Shown here: piece by piece, positions 130 to 3,305 of the stretch
Layout: every line of letters begins with the position of its first letter
Numbering within the stretch: position 1 is the stretch's first letter
Assembly: GCA_963170185.1 (NCBI GenBank)
Contig: CAUJGS010000023.1
Span: 1 to 41,615, forward strand
From: Bdellovibrionota bacterium
GTDB lineage: Bacteria > Bdellovibrionota > Bdellovibrionia > Bdellovibrionales > JAMPXM01
Direction: 5' to 3'
DNA: 41,615 nt
Translations under genes and position numbers: made by a program
The notes under the pieces: generated by a model
What the model was told of the DNA's origin: nothing
Databases searched by the model: none
What the model saw: the letters and a program-made list of their open reading frames with translations, nothing else

Positions 130-1167
130 TTAGAACACGTAAGTCAAAGCAGCCGAAGTCAGGAAGCTTGTTCCGTTGACGTTACCGTTAGTCGCAGCTG
201 CGAGAGTACCGTCAAGAGTGAAGCCACCGTGTTTGAAACCAAGACCCGCAGCAACTTTTGTGTCGTTTGCGTTCTTAACAGCTTTGTCGCCAGGCGCCGC
301 AGCAGTTTCGTTCTTTACCGAACCAAGCAAGAAACCTTGTTGGATCGATCCACGAACTGTCATCCACGAGAACATGTCTTTTTCGATACCGATGAAGACT
401 GGGAGCGAGAGCGTGTCGATTTTCTTGCCGCCAACATCCGCGTTTCCAAAGCCAAGACCTGCACCGTAGTAGATTTCCGCTACTGGGCGATGGTTCACGG
501 CAAGCGTGATCGCGAGATCTTTGCGCTCTGTGCTTACGCCAGCAGTTTCAACTTTCGACATTCCGTAGCCGATATCAGCCGAGTACGAGAGGTCGCCGTT
601 ACGCATCAGGTAGCCCGCGCCGATAGCTGGACCGCCTTCGAACTTGCTTCCTGTTTTTTCTGCCGAACCGATAGCTTCTACGTTCACGTAGAACTCTTGG
701 TTCTCTTGAACCATACCGAAGCGACCGATAACAGTCGTTTGCTTCGTGTCAGCAGGTCCGTTTTCCGAGTTCGAAAGAGAGAGCGATACCGCCCAGTCAC
801 CCGAACCGTAGAACAGATCTACTGGGTTTTCTTGTTGCAAGAAAGTAGCAGTCGTGCGGAGCGAGCGTTGGTTTTCGCTCATGTGGCCGAGGTAAGCACC
901 CCATTTTGCCGAGTCGCGAGCGATAACAAAACCACCCTCTGCTTTACCCGCTGCTGTTCCAGTTGGTCCGAACTCGTAAGTGACGTACTGACCGAGTTTA
1001 TGGATGTAAGCAGGCTGAGTGAAAATCGTCTGTGTGTCGACAAGACCGATTGCACCCTGAAGCGAGTTTACGCGCGCTTTTGAAGCCATTGCTTCGTTAG
1101 AAGAAACCACCGCGAGCAATGCTGCTGCGGCTGCTGCCAATTTAGATACTGTGTTCACTGATTTCAT
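130..1167 (-). CDS. Outer-membrane beta-barrel protein
   Basis: A 345-residue exported protein, probably a small outer-membrane barrel. The N-terminus is a signal peptide with an Ala-rich core ending near SNEAMA. The rest alternates polar and hydrophobic residues with many Gly, Tyr and Thr, as in transmembrane strands, and contains phrases such as GAGLGFGNADVGG. The last residues are LTYVF; a C-terminal Phe is the usual signal for the Bam assembly machinery. The start is the ATG at 1167, with AAGGAG eight bases upstream; an in-frame GTG three codons earlier sits too close to that site. Its own promoter, with a perfect -35 box, lies between it and the preceding operon. No specific porin family can be assigned, so substrate or structural role is unknown. 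Confidence 0.8.
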   Translation of the reverse strand: MKSVNTVSKLAAAAAALLAVVSSNEAMASKARVNSLQGAIGLVDTQTIFTQPAYIHKLGQYVTYEFGPTGTAAGKAEGGFVIARDSAKWGAYLGHMSENQRSLRTTATFLQQENPVDLFYGSGDWAVSLSLSNSENGPADTKQTTVIGRFGMVQENQEFYVNVEAIGSAEKTGSKFEGGPAIGAGYLMRNGDLSYSADIGYGMSKVETAGVSTERKDLAITLAVNHRPVAEIYYGAGLGFGNADVGGKKIDTLSLPVFIGIEKDMFSWMTVRGSIQQGFLLGSVKNETAAAPGDKAVKNANDTKVAAGLGFKHGGFTLDGTLAAATNGNVNGTSFLTSAALTYVF

Positions 1168-1207
1168 CGAACTCACTCCTTATTCCGTGAAAGGTTCGTT
1201 GGAGTGA

Positions 1208-1254: not shown

Positions 1255-2382
1255 CTATTTTGCGGGCTGATTAAAGAAGTTCCGAATCGTGACTCGTTTC
1301 ACTTGCATTCCCGCGTAAGCCCCGCCAGGTATGGGGTTCAGAGCTTCGTCGAACGAACTCTCGCAGCGCTTCCAGAGAATCGAATCCAGCGCTCCCAATG
1401 TCTGAACGAGCGAAACTTCATGAGCCACATCGTCCGTTTGGCTCAGCACCAAACCAGATTTTGGCGCCATTCTCTTCAGCCGATCATTCCACCGCTCGGA
1501 ATTACAGGCCAAGAAACCCAGAATCTTCGGAGTCTTCTTCGCCAGAGAAAGCTTCGACGTGAGCTCCTCCAACCCCGGTTTATTCCGGCGATAGTATGGG
1601 TAATCGATCGCTCCATCCTTCAAGCGAGCAGGTGAAAAATCAGGCCCTCCGCCATCTCGCGCATGTCCTATGTAAAACAAGGCGTCCGCCTCTTCTATAC
1701 CTGACATGAATGCCCGCTTCGCCTGGGCTGACTTCTCTTCTTGCTCTTTTACAAACGCGCGGTTGATGCGATCACTCGAGCTATACGCACTAGCGACGAT
1801 TCTCAGCTTCACTTTGTGACTCGCGCCGCTGGGACCTTTAACTACTTTCTCCAGAATGTCGGCATCTTCTTCCGAACGCTTAAAGCCGCACACCGCTACG
1901 TTGGAGTTACAGGGCGTCACCAAACGATCAATCAACGATTGTCGAGAAATCACATCATCGACTGTGCGCTCATAACTCGCGTCGTAGTATCCGAATACGA
2001 TACGCACATCGATTTCCGGCTTTGAATAAAAATTCTCCCATGTTTTTTGGCAACGCGCGAGGGGAGATCCTTCTTGAGCGGTCGTCTCACCCGCCGTACT
2101 TGCATGGCAGTCCACGCAATTGTGTTGGTCGTATCGCAAATAGTCCAAAACCGTGTCGGCACTCTCAATTAGGTTCAAGTGTCGTTGCAAAACCTCAGCC
2201 TGCATCTGTTCGTCGGTTTTTCTCGGAGGCTGGGCGCTCGAAGCTCTAGGCGGAGTGGAGGCCCCCGTCTTTTGCTGCGCTCGTACCTGAGCTTCTGAAT
2301 CAGGAGTCGCCACAATGATCAACGCCGTCAGCGCAGACAAAACCAATGGTGATTTAAGAGGTTTCGAGAAAGAGACGCGCAT
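1255..2382 (-). CDS. Exported protein with CXXCH motif and caspase/CHAT-like His/Cys pair
   Basis: A 375-residue protein I cannot name. Residues 1-31 form a signal peptide, followed by a Pro/Ser/Thr/Gln-rich linker. CVDCH at 89-93 is a c-type haem attachment motif. The C-terminal half resembles the clan CD (caspase, CHAT, gingipain) fold: a strand VRIVF near 126, a hydrophobic strand running into GHA (His240), and ILGFLACNS with Cys293. That is the usual order and context of the catalytic His and Cys in that clan. Further cysteines are C109, C158, C165 and C340. The ATG overlaps the upstream gene's TGA by one base, so the two are almost certainly one operon. Peptidase activity and haem binding are inferences from motifs. 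A c-type cytochrome domain alone would usually show a distal Met, which I cannot place. Confidence 0.6.
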   Translation of the reverse strand: MRVSFSKPLKSPLVLSALTALIIVATPDSEAQVRAQQKTGASTPPRASSAQPPRKTDEQMQAEVLQRHLNLIESADTVLDYLRYDQHNCVDCHASTAGETTAQEGSPLARCQKTWENFYSKPEIDVRIVFGYYDASYERTVDDVISRQSLIDRLVTPCNSNVAVCGFKRSEEDADILEKVVKGPSGASHKVKLRIVASAYSSSDRINRAFVKEQEEKSAQAKRAFMSGIEEADALFYIGHARDGGGPDFSPARLKDGAIDYPYYRRNKPGLEELTSKLSLAKKTPKILGFLACNSERWNDRLKRMAPKSGLVLSQTDDVAHEVSLVQTLGALDSILWKRCESSFDEALNPIPGGAYAGMQVKRVTIRNFFNQPAK

Positions 2383-3305
2383 CAGGGACTCTCTTTTTTT
2401 CCCAGTTGAAGTGCACGTGCCTCGATCGACTCGCAGAGTTTGCGAGTCACTTCGCTCTTATCAAGGACACACGATATTCCATTTTTCGCTCCGGCGACCT
2501 CACGATACGTGGCCGCGAACTCTCTATCATCCATAGCGGCAAGCTGCCGATAGACACGCTCACGAACCTGATAAGGGTTCACCTTGATCGCCGTCTTCAA
2601 AAAGCGATAACGGTCTTTTTCCGGATATTCATTAATACGAAACCAATCGACGGAATGCATCCGTATCTCATAGACGTCATTCGCAAGAAGCTTCTCAAGA
2701 TCTTGAATCGAAGGCTTACCGCCCGACTCCTGCATCCCGTCCGTCAACGCTCCGATGGCCGCAAGACGGTCCGCCGACGGCACCTTGCTGTCTTGCAAAA
2801 ACTTGATTTCGTTCTTCACCACATCACTATTCAACTCACCGGCCTTCGCTTTTAACCGAAGAGAAAGCGCGCGCATTTTCCCGTCCATGCCAAAACCGCG
2901 CTGCTGCTGCGAAAGAATCCCAAGCACAGTCTTCGCATCACCGGCGCGAAACGCCTTGTTGCGACTCAACATTTCGATGGAACGTATCCAACGTCCTAGC
3001 TCGAAACCGGAGGCGGCCGGAAGCCAAGCTCCCGATTCGGCGATGAACTTGTCGAGTTCTTTTTCGCTCAGCGACCGAATCAGCGAGGCCTTCCGCCCAG
3101 CCGTCACTTCATCGTCGTCTAGCTGGATCACGAGTTCATCAAACTGAGTCGGCTTTGCAGTCGCCGTCGGCTTCGGATCAGCGGCAAACGCGACAGGGAT
3201 CGCGATCAGAAGCATGGTCAGCACAACGCCGACCACGACTGAACCCGACGTGAGGGTCAGAGACTTTAGCACCTTTATAAACTGTAAATTTCCTTGTGAT
3301 TCCAC
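2382..3305 (-). CDS. Exported helical protein, operon partner of the CXXCH protein
   Basis: A 307-residue protein of unknown function. Residues about 12-41 are a long hydrophobic signal sequence ending AFA, followed by a short Pro/Thr/Lys linker. The rest is predicted to be almost entirely helical, with repeated charged/hydrophobic blocks that look like HEAT- or armadillo-type repeats (for example DVYEIRMHSVDWFRI). Two late cysteines (in SCVLD and KLCES) could form a disulfide in the periplasm. The reading frame opens with GTG at 3305, preceded only by AAAGAG two bases upstream, so the true start may lie a few codons downstream. Its TGA shares a base with the next gene's ATG. I infer that the pair acts together in the periplasm, with this protein as scaffold or partner. 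Confidence 0.65.
   Translation of the reverse strand: MESQGNLQFIKVLKSLTLTSGSVVVGVVLTMLLIAIPVAFAADPKPTATAKPTQFDELVIQLDDDEVTAGRKASLIRSLSEKELDKFIAESGAWLPAASGFELGRWIRSIEMLSRNKAFRAGDAKTVLGILSQQQRGFGMDGKMRALSLRLKAKAGELNSDVVKNEIKFLQDSKVPSADRLAAIGALTDGMQESGGKPSIQDLEKLLANDVYEIRMHSVDWFRINEYPEKDRYRFLKTAIKVNPYQVRERVYRQLAAMDDREFAATYREVAGAKNGISCVLDKSEVTRKLCESIEARALQLGKKESP

Follow-up and report, generated by a model that had tools for sequence, protein, structure and literature searches.

A candidate exported caspase-fold peptidase encoded with a HEAT-repeat partner in Bdellovibrionota

Two coupled genes on the minus strand of a 41,615 nt stretch of DNA (hereafter the window) from a Bdellovibrionota bacterium (JAMPXM01; assembly GCA_963170185.1, contig CAUJGS010000023.1) probably encode an exported two-component cysteine peptidase of clan CD, in which a HEAT-repeat solenoid, P0002, would bind a caspase-fold enzyme, P0001, and control it or present its substrate. 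We assign this reading a probability of roughly 0.6. The gene for P0002 comes first and is followed by that for P0001 (Table 1). Both reading frames, their one-base overlap, the CVDCH motif and the residues His240 (in GHAR) and Cys293 (in ACNS) had been pointed out in an initial annotation of the sequence, and all of them are present as it described.

Table 1. Features of the gene pair in the window.
Feature	Position	Strand	Details and basis
Caspase-fold enzyme gene P0001	1255..2382	(-)	375 aa, ATG start; ORF, homologues, model
HEAT-repeat partner gene P0002	2382..3305	(-)	307 aa, GTG start; predicted exported or membrane-anchored (hydropathy); model, homologues
TGATG, P0002 stop and P0001 start sharing one base	2380..2384	(-)	ORF calls, sequence
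Signal peptide-like N-terminus of P0001, residues 1-31	2290..2382	(-)	By eye and hydropathy
CVDCH, P0001 residues 89-93	2104..2118	(-)	CxxC only in nearest orthologues, His in none
Predicted caspase-haemoglobinase core domain, P0001 residues ~111-372	1267..2052	(-)	AlphaFold2 model and structural matches
GHARDGGGPDF motif, P0001 residues 239-249	1636..1668	(-)	Conservation; secondary structure
Predicted catalytic His240 codon, after strand 3	1663-1665	(-)	Within GHARDGGGPDF
Cys293 codon, predicted nucleophile after strand 4, in ACNS	1504..1506	(-)	Conservation; weak profile alignments

The fold of P0001 was assessed on an AlphaFold2 model built from a 60-row alignment (pLDDT 90.3, pTM 0.89). 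The model has the order b1-a1-b2-a2-b3(His)-a3-b4(Cys)-a4-b5-a5, its second strand element being a hairpin. The published clan CD core (PMC4357240) comprises four strands and helices 1-3, ordered as in caspases, and the same order is found in the P0001 model. Model residues 208 (His240) and 261 (Cys293) directly follow strands 202-206 and 255-259, which corresponds to the placement of a clan CD dyad, with a conserved His ending strand 3 and a conserved Cys ending strand 4. When the 1000 best Foldseek chains from the PDB were re-aligned with VIA-align, the best 50 of the 1000 rows were all clan CD proteins. The top match was SAVED-CHAT (186 residues aligned at 3.4 A, Z 10.9), and legumain (6l4w, 8.6), gingipain RgpB (8.3), C11 (8.1), metacaspase, caspases (Z about 7) and MALT1 were also among them; most of the Z values, at 7-8, lie in a range that the tool flags as possibly reflecting a common arrangement. 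Foldseek alone gave weak E-values (best 4e-3) with GTPases mixed in, and a GTPase identity was set aside because none is present in the best 50 VIA-align rows. A viral structure library yielded no significant match. The caspase-haemoglobinase fold suspected earlier for residues 120-375 is supported by both the model and its matches, and P0001 can, at the level of predicted structure, be considered a well supported caspase-fold protein of the clan CD kind.

Searches of P0001 against Pfam, NCBIfam, PADLOC and PDB-sequence profiles, however, returned no convincing match, and the C14, C25 and CHAT families, the candidates named in the initial annotation, gave no profile match above cut-off. The CHAT profile PF12770 matches neither P0001 nor any of 30 relatives, the C14 profile PF00656 leaves P0001 and its relatives below the Pfam gathering cut-off, and gingipain C25 and separase C50 do not match P0001 at that cut-off. 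The best sub-threshold E-values among relatives are 0.091 for C25, in one homologue, and 0.016 for C50 (PF03568), in two. PF00656 does find other genes in the phylum, none of them at the listed places of the enzyme family. Comparison by hhalign with locally collected C14 and CHAT profiles, the latter of only three sequences, was not significant; the weak local alignments put Cys293 on the motif Cys of both families. In the literature we found no paper on Bdellovibrio caspase-like proteins or on a pair of this enzyme with a HEAT protein, and neither cysteine proteases nor caspase-like ones are mentioned in the main text of a 2025 predation proteome. Judged by its sequences, the enzyme family appears to be undescribed, belonging to no named family of the Pfam, NCBIfam or PDB-sequence profiles searched.

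A whole-protein search of 40 related genomes recovered homologues in 21, which carry up to four copies each. Across 29 aligned homologues from this search, His240, Arg242, Gly244, Gly246, Cys293, Cys158 and Cys165 are invariant, and Cys111 and Cys340 are nearly so. A motif-guided scan across the genomes of 84,980 species yielded 66 loci, most of them in Bdellovibrionota, with Bdellovibrio bacteriovorus kdesi (L108) included; outside this phylum it found two loci in Elusimicrobia (L096, L099) and three in Verrucomicrobia (L121, L123, L124). In alignment A3 of the motif-scan homologues, conservation of GH[AS]RxGGGPD is by construction, because this motif was the search pattern; Cys293, which lies outside the pattern, is kept in all 60 rows. 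Finally, a profile search of the phylum covered 369 genomes and detected the family in 102. All 22 distant homologues taken from this search, with no motif filter, keep GH and Cys even where the motif otherwise drifts to GHGG, GHMN or GHSGLGGN, and the conservation seen in these sequences and in the whole-protein homologues, like that of Cys293 in A3, is free of motif-search bias. His240 and Cys293, on whose conservation the peptidase reading had been made to depend, are kept in every alignable homologue. Viral contigs gave no match.

On the tree, the two Elusimicrobia homologues group with a Bdellovibrionota sequence, which suggests transfer between phyla. The window's own genome also encodes a distant paralogue on contig C37 (L164:2112-3428, plus strand), an exported-looking protein of 439 aa with YAGHSGLGGN and FFFESCSSY and without a Pfam match. 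Similar proteins of 420-540 aa are present in several Bdellovibrionota and probably constitute a second undescribed caspase-fold family.

P0002 alone has no profile match, Pfam HEAT_2 included. A profile made from 11 relatives, with P0002 left out, nevertheless finds it at 1.2e-9; HEAT_2 matches 14 of 28 members of the partner family, and HEAT and HEAT_2 are above the Pfam cut-off in some relatives. The model of P0002 is an all-helical solenoid of 14 helices (pLDDT 88) which matches ARM/HEAT proteins with Z 11-12.6, values that on their own are weak for helical solenoids. With tandem helical hairpins arranged as a solenoid in the model and Pfam HEAT matches in the family, P0002 is, at the level of predicted structure, a HEAT-repeat solenoid. 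The earlier description of the partner as helical repeat-like can therefore be sharpened to a HEAT solenoid by model and family profiles, and the scaffold role suggested with it is one that the protein may have. The P0002 family has a conserved Cys pair of its own.

The two families are closely linked in genomes. Among 80 distinct enzyme loci, the HEAT gene lies directly upstream in 32, mostly overlapping, and the HEAT part is fused in frame at the N-terminus in three more (L086, L093, L114), so that it is upstream or fused in 35. On the tree, the fusions correspond to at least three separate changes. Conversely, when 359 genomes were searched with the partner alignment, 36 matches were strong (E below 1e-17), and 34 of them adjoin an enzyme gene or share its reading frame; the partner family is thus almost exclusively tied to the enzyme. 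Of the other two, a contig end truncates the first (G252), and the second has no adjoining enzyme. The latter is a lone HEAT-partner gene (G011:C669:1200-1838, L184) in a genome that holds three enzyme copies. Co-occurrence of the two genes in other genomes, proposed earlier as a check, is therefore borne out, the genes being kept together and at least three times fused. About half of the enzyme loci, Bdellovibrio included, have no HEAT neighbour, so that some members do not need the partner. One clade lacking the HEAT gene has an exported trypsin-family (S1) protease encoded directly upstream of the caspase-fold gene (L103:4771-5805, L120:4874-5863, L117:4805-5767; Pfam Trypsin 5e-14 to 1e-19).

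Both proteins of the pair are likely exported. The P0001 N-terminus reaches a peak hydropathy of 2.28 over 15 residues, and an A-x-A-like site, seen by eye, precedes residue 32. Among the enzymes, 41 of 59 have a hydrophobic N-terminus, and among the partners 14 of 27 do, compared to none of the internal controls, and the conserved cysteine pairs 111/340 and 158/165 of the P0001 family fit export. The signal peptide proposed for P0001 and the export proposed for its partner are thus supported by the hydrophobic N-termini together with the conserved extra cysteines.

In five related genomes the pair is divergent from Smr-orn and next to ahcY, with map also present in four of them. As the locus keeps its place among the housekeeping genes ahcY, map, orn and Smr across the family, the pair is vertically inherited and does not belong to a mobile island. 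A role in a defence system was rejected, given the housekeeping synteny and the absence of a PADLOC match for either window protein. The window also encodes an exported protein of 348 aa with the look of an outer-membrane barrel and no Pfam match (130-1176, minus strand), for which nine related loci showed no counterpart close to their enzyme genes.

The initial annotation had read CVDCH as a c-type haem motif and had proposed redox control of the peptidase. Haem binding is favoured by the perfect CVDCH of an exported protein and by a cytochrome c assembly protein encoded in the genome. However, CxxCH occurs in only one of the 60 A3 homologues, the window protein itself, and the nearest orthologues (about 42-56% identity) have CYECY, CLDCF, CADCL and CMDCG instead; the segment is missing from most homologues and its His is in none. 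The conserved CxxCH of a c-type cytochrome is thus absent from the family, and since the motif is unique to the window protein we dropped the reading of a haem-binding, redox-controlled peptidase, which we consider very improbable. CVDCH is a one-species accident rather than a family feature, and the CxxC of the nearest branch may be a disulfide or a metal site. Accidental attachment of haem to P0001 may still occur, because the genome has the assembly protein.

In the mechanism that we favour, P0001 would be the catalytic subunit, its predicted dyad formed by His240 after strand 3 and Cys293 after strand 4, and would probably be held together by conserved disulfides. The P0002 solenoid would bind it and either control it or present substrate, the layout of alpha-solenoid and caspase-like domain being split over two coupled genes; the site of action would be the cell envelope, the periplasm or the outside of the cell, and haem would have no role. 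The analysis shows the reading frames, the predicted folds, the conserved dyad, the close linkage of the genes and their natural fusions, whereas proteolytic activity, substrate, physical binding, regulation, the disulfides and the location are what we infer. Alternatively, the HEAT protein might resemble a securin or a prodomain and be the inhibitor or substrate of the enzyme instead of a scaffold or sensor, as it is made first from a coupled gene and is N-terminal in the three fusions, like a prodomain. We think this unlikely, since a solenoid that is conserved, Cys pair included, points to a binding domain with a stable fold, and since in separase and TPR-CHAT a solenoid joined to a caspase domain serves activation or scaffolding.

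The chemistry itself might be different. Some legumains and the GPI8 subunit of GPI transamidase are caspase-fold transpeptidases or ligases, and one His-Cys dyad serves both hydrolysis and transpeptidation. P0001 might therefore join or anchor exported proteins instead of degrading them, while the HEAT protein would guide the acceptor: both proteins look exported, the dyad of P0001 fits either chemistry and a legumain-type peptide ligase (6l4w) is among the top structural matches. SAVED-CHAT, a protease, matches better though, and the neighbourhood of the pair showed neither a sorting signal nor a gene for a dedicated substrate, so that we regard ligation as improbable. We also doubt that P0001 is a caspase-fold pseudo-enzyme used for binding; the family has no sequence link to proven peptidases, as would suit this view, but His and Cys persist in members whose GHARxGGGPDF is otherwise altered.

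In layout the pair resembles separase and TPR-CHAT, which combine an alpha-solenoid with a caspase-like domain (PMC4626109, PMC9729208). CHAT proteins (SAVED-CHAT, TPR-CHAT/Csx29 of Craspase) share the caspase-haemoglobinase fold, with the best match at Z 10.9, and TPR-CHAT also the solenoid; unlike them, P0001 is unrecognised by PF12770, appears exported and has its partner on a separate gene outside a defence locus, and the pair has HEAT instead of TPR or SAVED. Separase (C50), an intracellular eukaryotic enzyme, resembles the fused members in its N-terminal alpha-solenoid and C-terminal caspase-like part, and two family members touch PF03568 at a sub-threshold E of 0.016, whereas in the window two genes encode the two parts and no sequence match reaches significance. 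Among secreted bacterial clan CD enzymes, C11 (clostripain-like) and C25 (gingipain) are likewise exported and have the same fold (Z 8.1 and 8.3), but no profile match exceeds the cut-off (C25 0.09, one member) and the pair has a HEAT partner. C14 caspases and metacaspases share the fold (Z about 7), and the Cys is aligned in a weak profile match, yet the PF00656 genes of the phylum lie elsewhere than the listed places of this enzyme family.

To our knowledge, where caspase-like enzymes are regulated and have alpha-solenoids, as separase and Craspase do, they act inside cells. The family described here, its export being predicted from sequence features, would move the solenoid-caspase layout outside the cytoplasm, splitting and fusing it repeatedly. 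Tentatively, and with somewhat less than even confidence, we view it as an extracytoplasmic, HEAT-controlled clan CD protease that is widespread in Bdellovibrionota and perhaps acts on prey proteins or on those of its own envelope. If true, the pair would be a bacterial envelope counterpart of the separase/TPR-CHAT design, and the family, which has a lone copy in the model predatory bacterium, would offer a testable route to the solenoid control of caspase folds. It would also add an extracytoplasmic protease class to a phylum that is studied for its prey-digesting enzymes.
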